A stretch of 64,000 nucleotides of DNA. Source: an uncultured Anaerolineae bacterium (lineage in GTDB: Bacteria; Chloroflexota; Anaerolineae; Anaerolineales; Villigracilaceae). Position numbers and translations under genes: made by a program. Of the stretch, positions 38,668-63,296 are shown in pieces (position 1 is the stretch's first letter; every line of letters begins with the position of its first letter). The notes under the pieces were generated by a model. It searched no databases, was not told where the DNA came from, and saw nothing but the letters and a program-made list of their open reading frames with translations. Where the stretch lies: assembly GCA_903822545.1 (NCBI GenBank), contig CAIJPN010000172.1:1-64000 (forward strand), in the 5' to 3' direction.

Positions 38668-40043
38668 GACAGCACCTCCGTCAGCGACTGCGCCAGCAGG
38701 TCAATATCGGCGCGAGCGTGGATTTCGGTCACGCAGTACAGGGCGTGGTTTGCAAACTGCGGGAATTTTCCGCCCAGGTCATAGCCGCCGAAAATGCCGC
38801 GCTCCAGCAGGGCGTGGTTCACCTGGCTGACGGTTTTGCCGCTGCCCGAAAAATCGACCAGGAACTCGCGGAAATGTCCCGCCGCTGAATGTGGGGCGCT
38901 GATCCCCGGCACTTGCGCCAGCCTTTGCATGGCATAGCGTCCGCGCTGGAGGATGCCCTGCCCGATTTCAGTCATGCCCTGCGGCCCCATCACCGCCAGG
39001 TAAACCGCCGCGGTGATGGCCCACAGGTTGGCGGTGGTGGCGACCCATTCCTTGCCTTTTTCGCGCTTCGAGAAGGAGGTGCGCTCGGAGGCCACTTCGC
39101 CAAAACCGTATTCGCCCTCCACGCGGGTTGGCACAAAACCAACGACTCGGATGGGAATTTCCATGATGAAGCGCCGGTCGTCGTGGGTGGCGATGTAGCC
39201 AGCGTGCCCGCCGCCAAACTGCATGTGAATTCCGAGCGATTGGATGTCGCCGCAGGTAATATCCGCGCCGTAATCTGCCGGGGGCTTGAGCACGCCCAAT
39301 GAGATGGGGTCAGCCCCGACGATGAGCAGCGCACCGGCCTTGTGGGCCATTTCGGCCACCATCGCCCCATCGGTTTCGATGATGCCGAAGAAGTTGGGGT
39401 TGTCGAAGTACACGGCGGCGGTCTGGGGTGAGAGCAATTCTTCCAGCCGGGAGAGATTCAGTTTCCCGGTGGCAGGCTCAAAGTCGAGGGGTTTTAGCGC
39501 CAGGTGGCGGTTGTATTCCCTCGCTTTGGTAAATTTATCGGGCTGGATGGATGTCGCCACGATGATTTCCCGCCGCCCGGTGATGCTGGCGGCCATCCGC
39601 ATGGCGCTGGCGGCGGCTTGCAGGCCGTCGTAGGTTGGCAGGCTGACCACATCCATGTTGAGCAGTTCGGCCATCAGGCTGCTGTACTCGAAGAGCGCCT
39701 GCCAGCGTCCATGTTCCTCGTAGGCTTTGCCCGAGTAGGCGGTCAGGAATTCGTTGCGGCCGTTGATCTCGTCGCAGGCAGCCGGGACGAAATGCTGGTA
39801 GCAGCCCGCGCCGAGGAAGTTGAGTGCCTGGCTGGCGGGTGTGTTCTTCGCCAGCAGGCTTTCCACGTGGCGGCGCAGGGCGAATTCAGAGAGCAGCGGC
39901 GCGGGCAGATCAAGCGGGCGATGGAGGCGCAGTTCGGGCGGAATGGCAGAGAAAAGCGCTTCGATGCTCTCGAAGCCCAGTTCGCGCAGCATATCGGCTT
40001 TGGTTTGGGGTGCGGAGTTGGGGATGTAGGGGTAGGTGATCAT
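38664..40043 (-). CDS. gcvPA: Glycine dehydrogenase (decarboxylating) subunit 1
   Basis: Predicted 459 residues. N-terminal segment YIPNSAPQTKADMLRELG and the conserved FLGAGCYQHFVPAACDEINGRNEFLTAYS stretch (given here in part) are typical of the GcvPA subunit. It forms the P-protein of the glycine cleavage system with gcvPB. It starts the two-gene unit. No glycine riboswitch motif is visible in the 285 bases upstream, which hold a G/C-rich repeat and small hairpins. Confidence 0.94.
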   Translation of the reverse strand: MITYPYIPNSAPQTKADMLRELGFESIEALFSAIPPELRLHRPLDLPAPLLSEFALRRHVESLLAKNTPASQALNFLGAGCYQHFVPAACDEINGRNEFLTAYSGKAYEEHGRWQALFEYSSLMAELLNMDVVSLPTYDGLQAAASAMRMAASITGRREIIVATSIQPDKFTKAREYNRHLALKPLDFEPATGKLNLSRLEELLSPQTAAVYFDNPNFFGIIETDGAMVAEMAHKAGALLIVGADPISLGVLKPPADYGADITCGDIQSLGIHMQFGGGHAGYIATHDDRRFIMEIPIRVVGFVPTRVEGEYGFGEVASERTSFSKREKGKEWVATTANLWAITAAVYLAVMGPQGMTEIGQGILQRGRYAMQRLAQVPGISAPHSAAGHFREFLVDFSGSGKTVSQVNHALLERGIFGGYDLGGKFPQFANHALYCVTEIHARADIDLLAQSLTEVLS

Positions 40044-56114: not shown

Positions 56115-56208
56115 GTAAGGACGACCCTTCAGGGCATAAACTGGGGCAAATTCACAGGGCAACCTGACGGAAAACCTCGCTTTCCTGCGCCGGGCGGGTC
56201 GCCCCTTA
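56115..56208 (-). repeat. MITE-like element, copy C (94 bp)
   Basis: On the minus strand it reads TAAGGGGCGACCCGCCC ... GGTCGTCCTTAC, aligned end to end with copy A at 11324-11417. The first three bases of the minus reading are the TAA stop of the P-type ATPase gene. Confidence 0.65.
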
Positions 56209-58914
56209 TTTCCTCACCATCTTCTCAATCTCAATCGCGGCAAAGACCAGCAGCCCGGCCAGCACACAAATACCCAGGTCGGCCAGCCCCAGCGGGGTCA
56301 CAGAAAAGAATTCAGCCACAGGGGCAATGTAGATCACAGCCAGTTGCAGCACCAGCACCAGCGCCGACATCCCCAAAAGCAGCGGGTTGGTCACCAGCCC
56401 CAATTCCCACAGCGATTCACGGCTGGAGCGGCTGGCCAGCGCCTGGCCCACCTGTGCAAACGCCAGCGCAGTGAAAATCATCGTCTGCCAGGCCGGGGAA
56501 CCGCCAAAATAGTACCAGGAACCGATCCCCAGCCCCAGCACACCCACCAGCGCACCAACCCATATCGTCTGCGCGCCCGCCCCGCGCGAAAAAATGCCCT
56601 CGCCTGGCGCATACGGCGGGCGACGCATCGTATCGCGTTCAGGCTGTTCCACGCCCATGCCCAGCCCTAGCAGACCATCCGTCAACAGGTTTAGCCACAG
56701 CAATTGCAGCGGCAGCAGCGGGATCGGCTTGCCCAGGAACGGCGCGATCAACATCACCAGCACCTTGCCGATATTCCCAGCCACGCTAAAACGCACAAAC
56801 TTGCGGATGTTGTCATAAATTGTGCGGCCTTCCTTCACCGCCGCCACGATCGTCGCAAAATTATCATCCAGCAGCACCAGGTCGCTGGCTTCCTTCGAAA
56901 CATCCGTGCCGGTAATGCCCATCGCCACGCCAATATCGGCGCGCCGCAGCGCCGGGGCATCGTTCACCCCATCACCGGTCATCGAGACGATGTGCCCGCG
57001 CGCCTGGAGCGCCTGCACAATGCGGATTTTATGCTCCGGCGAAACCCGCGCGAACACATTGACACTTTCCACCAGCGATTGCAGCGTCTCATCTGACATG
57101 CGCTCAATCTCCGTGCCGGTCAACGCCAGCCCGTTTTCCGAAATACCCAGCTGCCGCGCAATCTCAACCGCGGTCAGCGGGTGATCGCCGGTGATCATCA
57201 CCGTGCGCATCCCGGCGGTACGGGTGGTCGCCACAGCATCCTTCACTTCAGCGCGCGGCGGGTCGATCATGCCGAACAGGCCCACAAACGTCAGGTTTTG
57301 TTCAATTTCAGGTGAATTAGGGATCGATTCCAACACCCGGAAGGCCACTCCCAGCACGCGCATTCCCCGCGCTGCCAGTTTTTCATTGGACGATTCGATC
57401 CGGCCCTGCCAGTTTGCATCCATTATCTCGGCTTTCCCATCCACCCAAACATGCGACGAGATCGCTGCCAACCCATCCACCGAGCCTTTGGTGAACGCGA
57501 TCAACTGCGCGCCATCCGCAACACCATCCAAAGCCGGATAACGAGATACCAGGCCAGCCGATAAACTGTGAACCGTGGTCATGCGTTTGCGGTCACTATC
57601 AAATGGCACCTCCCCCACGCGCGGGAAATCCGAATCGAGCGTATCCTTCCAAAAACCGAGCCGCAGCCCGGCCCCCACCAGCGCCCCTTCGGTGGGGTCG
57701 CCCAGGGTGTGATAGCGGCCCTCGTTCTGTTCCACCAACCTGGCATCATTGCACAACGCCCCACCGATAGCCAGCAGCGATAACGCGCCACCACGCACCT
57801 CCGCACCATCCGGGCGAGGAGTGGGTGGGATGGTAATCCCTCCATCGCGCTTCATCTCTTCTGTCAAATCCACCTGGTGCCCGGCCACATCCAGCACCAG
57901 CACGGTCATCTTGTTCTCAGTCAGCGTGCCGGTTTTATCCGAGCAAATGACCGTCACCGAGCCGAGCGTTTCCACAGCCGGCAGTTTGCGGATGAGCGCC
58001 TTGCGCTTGAGCATGCGCTGCGCGCCCAACGCCAGGGTAATGGTCACCACCGCTGGCAATCCTTCCGGGACGATGGCAACGGCCACGCTGACAGCTGTCA
58101 GCAGCATGTGGCGGATTTCGTCGCCGCGCAGCAGCCCCAGGATGAAGATCAACCCGGCGATGGCGACCCCGATCACCGCCAGGGTTTTGCCCAGGCTGTC
58201 GAGACGCTTTTGCAGCGGGGTTTCCTCCTGCGGCACCTGTTGGATCAAATCGGCGATCTTGCCCAGCTCGGTTTTCATGCCGGTGGCTATCACCAGGGCA
58301 AGCCCGCGCCCCTGCGTGACGGTAGTACCCAGGTAACCCATATTGCGACGATCACCCAAAGGCAGGTCGGAGCCGGCCAGGGCATGGGTATGTTTTTCGA
58401 TGGCTTCGGATTCACCTGTCAGGGCAGATTCCTGGATCCGCAGGTTGAACGCTTCCAGCAGGCGCACATCCGCCGGGAGCAGGTTGCCGGTCTCCAGTTG
58501 GATGACATCCCCCGGAACCAGTTCCCGCGCTGAGATTTCGCTCCATTTCCCATCACGCAGCGCCCGAACATTGGGCACCGAGAGCTTTTTCAGCGCAGCA
58601 ATGGCCTGTTCGGCGCGATATTCCTGCACAAACCCGAGAATGGCATACAGCAGGACAATTGCGCCGATGGCCACGGCATTCTTGGTATCGCCCAACAGCG
58701 CAGAGACAATTGCCGCGCCGATGAGAATCAGCACCATGGTGGCGGTCAGCTGCTCCCACAGGATTTGCAGCGGGGTGCGCCCGCCTTTTTCGGTCAGTTC
58801 GTTGGGGCCATATTCGGCCAGGCGGCGGGCCGATTCAACGGTAGCCAGCCCCAGGGCGGGGTCGGCACGCAAAGTTTGCAGCGCAGAATTTGTATCCAGG
58901 GTGTGCCAGTTCAT
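56206..58914 (-). CDS. P2-type cation ATPase, probable Mn2+/Ca2+ exporter
   Basis: Predicted 902 residues from ATG 58914; frame beyond it runs into the riboswitch leader. SALTGESEAIEK (actuator), PEGLPAVV (M4), ICSDKTGTLTENK (phosphorylation Asp), MTGDGVNDAPALR (hinge) and WLNLLTDG (M6) are present, all typical of SERCA/PMR1-type P2A pumps. It should export Ca2+ or Mn2+. The leader carries a yybP-ykoY element, which in other bacteria senses Mn2+ and controls pumps of this type, so Mn2+ export is favoured. Confidence 0.9.
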   Translation of the reverse strand: MNWHTLDTNSALQTLRADPALGLATVESARRLAEYGPNELTEKGGRTPLQILWEQLTATMVLILIGAAIVSALLGDTKNAVAIGAIVLLYAILGFVQEYRAEQAIAALKKLSVPNVRALRDGKWSEISARELVPGDVIQLETGNLLPADVRLLEAFNLRIQESALTGESEAIEKHTHALAGSDLPLGDRRNMGYLGTTVTQGRGLALVIATGMKTELGKIADLIQQVPQEETPLQKRLDSLGKTLAVIGVAIAGLIFILGLLRGDEIRHMLLTAVSVAVAIVPEGLPAVVTITLALGAQRMLKRKALIRKLPAVETLGSVTVICSDKTGTLTENKMTVLVLDVAGHQVDLTEEMKRDGGITIPPTPRPDGAEVRGGALSLLAIGGALCNDARLVEQNEGRYHTLGDPTEGALVGAGLRLGFWKDTLDSDFPRVGEVPFDSDRKRMTTVHSLSAGLVSRYPALDGVADGAQLIAFTKGSVDGLAAISSHVWVDGKAEIMDANWQGRIESSNEKLAARGMRVLGVAFRVLESIPNSPEIEQNLTFVGLFGMIDPPRAEVKDAVATTRTAGMRTVMITGDHPLTAVEIARQLGISENGLALTGTEIERMSDETLQSLVESVNVFARVSPEHKIRIVQALQARGHIVSMTGDGVNDAPALRRADIGVAMGITGTDVSKEASDLVLLDDNFATIVAAVKEGRTIYDNIRKFVRFSVAGNIGKVLVMLIAPFLGKPIPLLPLQLLWLNLLTDGLLGLGMGVEQPERDTMRRPPYAPGEGIFSRGAGAQTIWVGALVGVLGLGIGSWYYFGGSPAWQTMIFTALAFAQVGQALASRSSRESLWELGLVTNPLLLGMSALVLVLQLAVIYIAPVAEFFSVTPLGLADLGICVLAGLLVFAAIEIEKMVRK

Positions 58915-58992
58915 CAGGTTAAAAATTCCTTTCTTTTTTGGAGTGCATTCCGTAAGCAGGGCTCCCAGACTCCAAGACGGGTGGCTGCGGCG

Positions 58993-59027
58993 AAAAAAAA
59001 GACCACCGCCAGGTTTGGCGATGGTCT
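58993..59027 (-). terminator. Riboswitch expression-platform terminator
   Basis: On the minus strand GACCATCGCC and GGCGGTGGTC form a 10-bp stem with one G-T pair, followed by eight T. It overlaps the aptamer's 3' end (the AGACC part), so terminator and aptamer should be exclusive. Confidence 0.8.
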
Positions 59028-59112
59028 GGCCTTTTAACTGGACAGCCGGGAAAAATCCGTATTGACGGCTGCGCATCCCGTTGCCGGGCGGCTACTCCCC
59101 ACCGGAGTTATA
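59017..59112 (-). ncRNA. yybP-ykoY (Mn2+) riboswitch aptamer
   Basis: The minus-strand transcript has the conserved GGGGAGTAGC (59100-59091), then GTCAATACGGA (59066-59056), CGGCTGT and GCCAGACC, in the order and spacing of the yybP-ykoY family. The terminator 58993-59027 follows at once. In this family Mn2+ binding stabilises the aptamer and prevents termination, turning on the exporter gene. The boundaries are approximate; a covariance-model search would confirm. Confidence 0.85.
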
Positions 59113-59116
59113 AGGT

Positions 59117-59145
59117 AGTATACGAAATCGCAGGGAGATTGTCAA
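59117..59145 (-). promoter_or_regulatory. Consensus promoter for the riboswitch leader
   Basis: On the minus strand TTGACA (59145-59140) and TATACT (59122-59117) are exactly 17 bases apart. Initiation near 59110 gives an RNA that begins just before the aptamer. Confidence 0.85.
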
Positions 59146-59168: not shown

Positions 59169-60260
59169 TTACACTGCCAGAGCAGGCATTTTCATCGCCG
59201 AGCGGATCATCAAGTATTCGGTGATGTTTTCTGCGGTCAACAGGCCAACCATCTGACCGTTGTGCAACACTGGCAGGACGGGTGTACCAGCTTCTTGGAG
59301 ACGCGCGATGGCGATTTCTACCATTTCGTAGCTATCCACGGTGGGCAGCCCACTGCGCATGATGCTGGAAACCATTACATTCTGGCCGTGCCGGGTAAGG
59401 GCGGCAAGGAAATCATCACGTGTAACGACGCCAACGATGCGGCTTTCATCGATAACCGGGAAATCATGCTGTGAGCCAGCCAGGATCAGCTGCACCATAC
59501 GCGAAATGGAATCGCGCGGCGAAAGCACCTGGTAATCGGTCAGCATGGCGTTGCGCACGGGGATACCGCCGAGCGCATTTTTCATCTGTACCATGCTGGC
59601 TTCCTGGGCGGCGCCCATCCAGACGAAGAAAGCGATGAACACCAGCATGGGGTTGCCAAACAGCCCGGCCAGCCCAAACAAGAGGGCCGCGCCCTGGCCG
59701 ATGATGGCAGCGATGTTGGTGGCTTTGACATAATCCATGTTCATGGCGAGGATGGCGCGCAACACGCGGCCACCATCCATGGGGAAGGCCGGGATCAGGT
59801 TGAAGAGCACCAGCGAAATGTTGACAATCATCAAGCGCTCGATGAATGAGCCGGTGGTCAGCGTCAATTGATTGAGCGGCACGAGCGCGTTACTCACCAG
59901 CAGGTAGGCGAACAAAACCGCCGCGATGACTACGTTCACCGCCGGGCCGGCCAGGGCCACCCACAATTCCTGGATGGGCTTTTCGGGCATCCGCTCGAGC
60001 CGCGCTACCCCTCCGATGGGGTAAAGGGTAATATCGCGGGTGCGAATGCCAAATTTGCGAGCGGTCAGGGCGTGCCCATACTCGTGCAACGTAACGGCCG
60101 CAAACAACAGCAAGATAAACGCCACACCTTCGATCACTGCGCCGATGGTGCGGCTTTCCAGCCAGTAGGTCAGCCCATACCAACCCACGATCAGCAAAAA
60201 GGTGGCGTGAATGAATACGTCAATGCCCGCAAAGGTTCCAAGTTTCCACTGCCATTTCAT
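59169..60260 (-). CDS. M50 site-2-type zinc metalloprotease with CBS domains
   Basis: Predicted 363 residues. Six or so membrane helices carry the zinc motif HEYGH in LHEYGHALTARKFGIR and the third ligand in NLIPAFPMDGGRVL. Two CBS domains follow (about 240-350), which would sense nucleotides. This is the CBS-type intramembrane protease group (SpoIVFB/MJ0392 type). The substrate is unknown. It ends 24 bases before the P-type ATPase promoter. Confidence 0.9.
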   Translation of the reverse strand: MKWQWKLGTFAGIDVFIHATFLLIVGWYGLTYWLESRTIGAVIEGVAFILLLFAAVTLHEYGHALTARKFGIRTRDITLYPIGGVARLERMPEKPIQELWVALAGPAVNVVIAAVLFAYLLVSNALVPLNQLTLTTGSFIERLMIVNISLVLFNLIPAFPMDGGRVLRAILAMNMDYVKATNIAAIIGQGAALLFGLAGLFGNPMLVFIAFFVWMGAAQEASMVQMKNALGGIPVRNAMLTDYQVLSPRDSISRMVQLILAGSQHDFPVIDESRIVGVVTRDDFLAALTRHGQNVMVSSIMRSGLPTVDSYEMVEIAIARLQEAGTPVLPVLHNGQMVGLLTAENITEYLMIRSAMKMPALAV

Positions 60261-62183: not shown

Positions 62184-62227
62184 TTGTCATTTGAACTTTT
62201 ACAGTATAATCATATATGAGCATATAT
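62184..62227 (+). promoter_or_regulatory. ArsR/VIT promoter with palindromic operator
   Basis: TTGTCA (62184-62189), TATAAT (62205-62210) with 15 bases between, and ATATATG-AG-CATATAT (62212-62227) directly after the -10. The palindrome resembles ArsR/SmtB sites in base content and would block initiation until metal binds the repressor. Confidence 0.55.
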
Positions 62228-62241
62228 TCAGGTGTTCTCTT

Positions 62242-62553
62242 ATGACAAATAATAATCCATTCCCTGTTCTTGATGAGCACACTGCGGCGCATGTGGCTGA
62301 GCTTTTCCGTTCGTTCAGCGATACCAGCCGGGTGCGCATCTTATCCGCCATTGTTGAGCGCGAACTCAACGTAGGCACACTCGCCGCGCTTGTGGGCGTA
62401 ACCGAATCGGCTGTTTCACATCATATGCGCGGGCTGCGGCAAATGCGCCTGGTTGCCGCCCGGCGTGAAGGTAAAGAAGTTTTTTACCGAATCGAAGACC
62501 CGCATATCATCACGCTGTTCCAACAAGGCGTGGCTCACATTCAGGATAAGTAA
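62242..62553 (+). CDS. ArsR/SmtB-family transcriptional regulator
   Basis: Predicted 103 residues from ATG 62242; upstream in-frame start 62191 lies before the -10 box and is rejected. The winged helix-turn-helix shows VAELFRSFSDTSRVRILSAI, VTESAVSHHMRGLRQM and REGKEVFYRIEDPH. The alpha3N cysteine box (ELCVCD) is absent, but the C-terminal helix has DPHIITLFQQGVAHIQ, like alpha5-type sites. It probably represses its own operon and is released by a metal. It ends 2 bases before the transporter gene. Confidence 0.88.
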   Translation: MTNNNPFPVLDEHTAAHVAELFRSFSDTSRVRILSAIVERELNVGTLAALVGVTESAVSHHMRGLRQMRLVAARREGKEVFYRIEDPHIITLFQQGVAHIQDK

Positions 62554-62555
62554 CG

Positions 62556-63296
62556 ATGAGTATTGAAACATCGCTCCATCATTCCGAACAAATCCGTTTT
62601 CACGGCAGTATCGATCCGCACAAACGTGCTTCGGGGCTGTCGGATATTATTCTCGGTGGGCAGGATGGTCTGGTGAATGTTCTGGGCGTTATCCTGGGGG
62701 TGGCTGCGGCTACCAGCGATACGCAGATTGTGCTGGTGGCGGGGCTGGCGGCCACTTTTGCTGAATCGGTTTCGATGGGCGCTGTGGCTTATACTTCTAC
62801 CCTGGCCGATGCAGATTTTTATGAAAGTGAACGCGCCCGCGAGTACCGGCATATCCAGGAAGTGCCGCAATTAGAGCGGGCCGAAATCCGCGAGATTTAT
62901 GCGCGGAAGGGTTTCAGCGGTGAACTACTGGATCGCATTGTGGAAACGATCACCACCAACCAGGATATCTGGGTGGCGGTGATGATGGCGGAGGAGCACC
63001 AGCTCATTCCCACCGACCGTTCACAGGCCATCCGCGCGGCGCTGATCGTGGGGTTTTCTGCCATTGTCGGGTCGCTCATCCCGCTTGTCCCGTTCATGTT
63101 CCTGGCGGTGGATGCCAGTATCTGGGCATCCATCATTGTGACGGCGCTGGTGTTGTTCTTTGTGGGGGCCTACAAGGCCCGCATCACAATCGGACGTCCG
63201 TGGAAGAGCGGGCTGGAAATGGCCGCGATCGGAACCATCAGCGCGCTGGCGGGTTACCTGGTTGGATACCTGCTCAAGATCCCGAGTGTGCCGTAA
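62556..63296 (+). CDS. VIT1/CCC1-family Fe2+/Mn2+ transporter
   Basis: Predicted 246 residues with four to five membrane helices. The family signature is seen in SDIILGGQDGLVNVLGVILG and AESVSMGAVAYTS. A central charged helix region (about 90-150) is the expected metal-binding domain with Glu residues (HIQEVPQLERAEIREIY). It should move Fe2+ or Mn2+ out of the cytoplasm. It is in one operon with ArsR, so its expression is probably metal-induced. Confidence 0.9.
   Translation: MSIETSLHHSEQIRFHGSIDPHKRASGLSDIILGGQDGLVNVLGVILGVAAATSDTQIVLVAGLAATFAESVSMGAVAYTSTLADADFYESERAREYRHIQEVPQLERAEIREIYARKGFSGELLDRIVETITTNQDIWVAVMMAEEHQLIPTDRSQAIRAALIVGFSAIVGSLIPLVPFMFLAVDASIWASIIVTALVLFFVGAYKARITIGRPWKSGLEMAAIGTISALAGYLVGYLLKIPSVP

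Follow-up and report, generated by a model that had tools for sequence, protein, structure and literature searches.

We analyzed a 64,000-nucleotide stretch of a contig from an uncultured Anaerolineae bacterium (Chloroflexota), referred to here as the window, in which a gene for a P2A-type cation-transporting ATPase is preceded on the minus strand by a structured leader. The order of elements from 59145 to 58914 is promoter, GGGGAGTAGC, GTCAATACGG, AGACC running into a terminator, AAAGGA, and the ATG of the ATPase gene. The individual features are as follows.

59117..59145 (minus): sigma-70-type promoter, TTGACA-17-TATACT, 11 of 12 consensus bases matched
59094..59108 (minus): candidate 5′ hairpin ACUCC/GGAGU, overlapping P1.1 and the L1 strand and alternative to the aptamer
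59104-59019 (minus): compact yybP-ykoY aptamer
59099..59104 (minus): 5′ strand of the P1.1 switch helix, CGGUGG, with covariation in the Firmicutes copies
59091..59100 (minus): L1 metal-binding strand and 5′ strand of P1.2, block GGGGAGTAGC / GGGGAGUAGC
59077..59088 (minus): P2 hairpin, CCC/GGG
59042..59072 (minus): P3 (P3.1, L3, P3.2), with compensatory changes
59057..59066 (minus): L3 block GTCAATACGG / GUCAAUACGG, including A59063
59029..59041 (minus): 13-base junction linker CCAGUUAAAAGGC, replacing P4 and ending in the 3′ strand of P1.2
59019..59024 (minus): 3′ strand of P1.1, CCAUCG, contained completely in the terminator's 5′ arm (59027-59016)
59027-59000 (minus): intrinsic terminator stem-loop with a 12-pair stem and 4-nt loop, with the T tract reaching 58993
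58927..58932 (minus): Shine-Dalgarno-like AAAGGA, from direct reading of the sequence
56206..58914 (minus): P2A-type cation-transporting ATPase of 902 aa, ATG at 58914, the controlled gene

Anatomy of the leader

The original prediction had described a consensus promoter with 17-base spacing, two conserved blocks and a terminator that shares the AGACC end of the aptamer, and all of these are in place: the promoter at 59145-59117, GGGGAGTAGC at 59100-59091 and GTCAATACGG at 59066-59057, with AGACC running into the 12-pair stem at 59027-59000, which is followed directly by seven T residues. Shuffling leads one to expect 0.2 promoter-like and 0.5 terminator-like sites per 400-base stretch, and the real promoter and terminator exceed these. 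The fold energy of the leader is beaten by only one of 200 dinucleotide shuffles (z -3.9).

The family features of the aptamer are present, including L1 (GGGGAGUAG) and L3 (GUCA, with the liganding adenosine). In published structures the ligands of Mn2+ are L1 and L3 phosphates together with the N7 atom of an L3 adenosine that does not vary, A41 in L. lactis (PMC6754395), and A59063 is its counterpart in the window. The window copy has P1.2 pairs GC/GC, P3.1 pairs GCAGCCG/CGGCUGU and P3.2 pairs GGA/UCC, and its linker CCAGUUAAAAGGC connects P3 with CAGACC. The P4 helix is absent from the window and from most Anaerolineales copies in the aptamer alignments inspected. A four-way junction with P4 is typical of yybP-ykoY aptamers, although not universal. 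We do not treat P4 as defining because the S. pneumoniae mgtA switch is reported to have a three-way junction (PMC9495176).

The six bases of the 3′ strand of P1.1 (59024-59019) lie wholly inside the terminator arm 59027-59016, and the P1.1 and terminator folds are mutually exclusive, as in L. lactis, where Mn2+ stabilizes P1.1 and termination is averted (PMC11087558). From energies alone, with no ligand, the terminated fold (-43.8 kcal/mol) is far stabler than the aptamer fold (-23.1 kcal/mol), which is the expectation for a ligand-free attenuator, and the energies by themselves show no switching.

Covariance models and family membership

At the Rfam cut-offs there is no match in the window. 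With relaxed thresholds the best Rfam match is RF02617 SSRC10 (18.3 bits), and RF00080, whose cut-off is 45, gives 10.6 bits. The alx and mntP leaders of E. coli are Mn2+-responsive and served as positive controls: RF00080 did not report alx (L131) up to an E value of 10, and mntP (L132) scored 41.6 bits, also below the cut-off, as do Bacillus-type and Tissierellia-type copies. Because RF00080 at its cut-off recovers neither of the two E. coli leaders, its low score is no evidence against membership of the window leader, and since the Rfam 15 Manganese model misses real members, the E. coli leaders included, annotation at Rfam cut-offs undercounts this riboswitch.

Two further models were built, R1 from 19 Chloroflexota copies with the window left out, and R2 from 28 Firmicutes copies only. 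R1 scores the window at 82.1 bits (E 3e-21) and also recognizes Firmicutes copies. The R2 matches run from end to end, with 39.1 bits (E 1.1e-8) for the window, 33.6 bits for E. coli alx and 16.9 bits for mntP. They connect the window with leaders whose Mn2+ response is known, with no Chloroflexota sequences used. The absence of a covariance-model hit, named by the original prediction as a refuting result, fails as a test with RF00080, and R1 and R2 do find the window. R1 also gives a weak match elsewhere in the window (38828-38911, 14.4 bits, E 0.24), which was taken as chance.

Standard pairs fill 97.5% of the pair cells in the 19 Chloroflexota copies and 96.1% in the 28 Firmicutes copies, with changes on both sides in eight and ten pairs respectively, and covariation in both alignments is greater than in any of the 500 shuffles or any slid control. 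P1.1 is nearly invariant in the Chloroflexota set and changes on both sides in the Firmicutes, and the pairing of P3.1 and P3.2, with L3 between them, is backed by covariation. The two-block pattern matches once in the 5.5-Mb genome that contains the window (reversed control, 0) and in seven of 400 genomes of the phylum (reversed control, 1). The R1 and R2 matches, the covariation and the P1.1-terminator overlap together bear out the central proposal of a yybP-ykoY riboswitch with a transcription-termination platform ahead of a P2A ATPase.

Distribution and gene neighborhoods

A scan with GGGGAGTAGCN{10,40}CGTCAATACGG matched at least 119 DNA stretches, and among the matches listed there are Firmicutes, Proteobacteria, Deinococcales and Chloroflexota. 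For 96 among the matches listed, the first gene behind the block pair mostly encodes TerC (34), a P-type ATPase (20), a VTT/DedA protein (10) or a Na/Ca exchanger (3), and the downstream genes of these listed relatives are mostly Mn2+/cation transporters. In a survey of ATPase loci drawing on 41 genomes, including that of the window, 30 loci were examined (the window's included) and 16 carry a switch in the 1.5 kb preceding the ATPase; these 16 are dispersed across the ATPase tree. The association with P2A ATPases is a repeated one, and Mn2+ switches precede several deep P2A branches in the Anaerolineae. No switch was found within 1.5 kb of the close ATPase orthologues L135-L137. The riboswitch was considered as a marker of one ATPase subclade and rejected as such, with 10 changes on the tree versus a shuffled mean of 10.2. 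We note that aptamers with an altered L3 lie ahead of orthologous ATPases at L138:4299-4384 and L145:625-713 (GUCAUGUC; AUCAACCC), and these are candidates for altered metal specificity.

A covariance search of the whole genome identified a second copy at C73:4375-4464 (L002; 90.7 bits), behind which are a small ORF, a VTT/DedA protein, a small membrane ORF and a second P2A ATPase that is 48% identical to that of the window. DedA followed by a P2A ATPase is also present behind the switch in L037, L049, L079 and L120; in the window the switch leads to the ATPase without an intervening DedA. A full-text literature search for a link between DedA and the manganese riboswitch found nothing on the subject. 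Directly before the riboswitch is a gene for an M50 protease with CBS domains, at 59169-60260 in the window and at L079:2740-3831 (both minus strand), the two products being 72% identical. The L079 ATPase is 68% identical to that of the window over the 628 aligned columns available, and since both protease and ATPase are shared, the locus is conserved.

Predicted switching, the transported ion and a candidate 5′ hairpin

From homology and anatomy, we consider it highly probable that this leader is a yybP-ykoY switch that turns transcription on in response to Mn2+. At low Mn2+, the CCAUCG strand of P1.1 would pair into the terminator hairpin, and transcription would end ahead of the ATPase gene. 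Mn2+ bridging L1 and L3 would dock the two legs of the aptamer, which would stabilize P1.1 (CGGUGG/CCAUCG) and prevent the terminator from forming; the P2A ATPase would then be transcribed and would lower cytoplasmic Mn2+, and perhaps Ca2+ too.

Control of a P-type ATPase by such a switch is already known, for L. lactis YoaB and C. difficile CD2503 (PMC11477304) and for S. pneumoniae MgtA, a failsafe Mn2+ exporter whose leader senses Mn2+/Ca2+ (PMC11434433). The window leader is a genuine but ordinary member of the Mn2+ switch class, built like a streptococcal one. The Streptococcus mgtA switch shares the three-way junction and the predicted activation by metal, and controls a Mn2+/Ca2+ ATPase (PMC9495176, PMC11434433); the host phylum differs, being Chloroflexota (Anaerolineae) here. 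L. lactis yoaB has the same type of aptamer, a P1.1 strand common to the terminator and a P-type ATPase as the controlled gene (PMC11087558, PMC11477304), but has a four-way junction with P4, which the window lacks. The aptamers of E. coli alx and mntP are matched by the same models, although their P4 is longer and their controlled genes are different. A further relative is SSRC10 of Streptococcus pyogenes, whose match spans window positions 59107-58994 and which has GGGAGUAG, CGUCAAUACGG and GAGACC followed by a terminator. Unlike the window leader it is catalogued as a trans-acting sRNA candidate, and the gene that follows it is described as a ‘putative calcium transporter’ (PMC3675131). SSRC10 probably represents the terminated form of an mgtA-type Mn2+ riboswitch leader.

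The ATPase is of the P2A (SERCA/PMR1-like) type by its Pfam domains, DKTGT, PEGLP in M4 and N..D in M6. Both equivalog models score below cut-off, the PMR1-type (699 bits, cut-off 798) being nearest and the SERCA-type giving 612 (cut-off 703), and among solved structures Listeria LMCA1 (Ca2+) and human SPCA1 come closest. Ion site II is kept (M4 PEGLP, M6 N..D), and a lysine in M5 (AGNIGK) stands where site I of SERCA has Glu, which suggests that one ion is likely transported. When the site I and II residues are compared they favour neither Ca2+ nor Mn2+. Export of Mn2+, offered by the original prediction as a refinement of the usual Ca2+-ATPase annotation, is likely as a best guess from the switch. 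It is compatible with Ca2+ too, because the closest characterized case, Streptococcus mgtA, senses both ions and controls a Mn2+/Ca2+ ATPase. This gives a usable prediction for a vaguely annotated ‘calcium’ ATPase in Chloroflexota.

Within the same riboswitch class, both the signal and the pump substrate could be Ca2+ as much as Mn2+, with dual sensing and export. The three-way-junction form and the ATPase family are shared with Streptococcus mgtA, whose aptamer binds Ca2+ and Mn2+ (PMC9495176, PMC11434433), and the kinship of the pump with LMCA1 and SPCA1 points the same way. However, the window keeps the L3 adenosine that confers Mn2+ preference, and Mn2+ activates Streptococcus transcription in vitro more strongly than Ca2+ does (PMC9495176), and we regard dual use as a serious but rather unlikely reading. 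That another divalent ion is the ligand is improbable: altered-ligand variants of the yybP motif have been suspected by Breaker's group (PMC7266159), but L1 and L3 here equal the common consensus letter for letter, where differences in the pocket would be expected. A chance likeness, in which a terminator between two genes happens to carry look-alike words, would fit the low RF00080 score and is rejected because of the match to a window-free model (genome-wide E ~1e-19), the covariation and the same layout in relatives.

With a Mn2+-responsive ON switch as the preferred reading, the side findings (the 5′ hairpin, the DedA operon, the narrow RF00080 model and SSRC10) carry more interest than the switch itself. 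The motif (A/G)CTCC is preserved among Anaerolineales relatives directly 5′ of P1.1, with a one-base overlap, and because it lies ~6 bases past the -10 box (8 in the window) it probably represents the first transcribed bases. An RNAalifold consensus of 12 leaders consists of ACUCC/GGAGU and the terminator. For the 5′ hairpin stretch, the 25 Chloroflexota copies have a mean of -7.6 versus -3.9 kcal/mol with the upstream bases shuffled, 12 of them being singly at ≤0.05, and other copies have a mean of -4.1 versus -2.9 kcal/mol; the sequences are related. Covariation cannot test this hairpin because the aptamer itself dictates the GGAGU partner. Some copies from elsewhere in the class (L171 and L175, of other families) lack the 5′ element. 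Extension of P1 by the 5′ CUCC was also considered and rejected, as it has no partner 3′ of P1.1.

We regard ACUCC/GGAGU as a candidate anti-aptamer hairpin, which could occlude the metal-binding loop. We suggest, as a tentative and on balance doubtful model, that in the P4-less switch of the Anaerolineales transcription would begin at (A/G)CUCC or close to it and the 5′ hairpin would exclude L1 and P1.1 as a second lock, that Mn2+ would have two tasks, to open this anti-aptamer and to block the terminator, and that DedA would take part in Mn2+ homeostasis. If true, the conserved DedA-ATPase operon behind the switch would be what places DedA proteins there.

Elsewhere in the window, 3-4 kb from the riboswitch, an ArsR/SmtB-type regulator gene is closely followed by one for a VIT1-family (Fe2+/Mn2+ transporter-like) protein (62191-63296, plus strand), and this pair is possibly a second metal-homeostasis unit.
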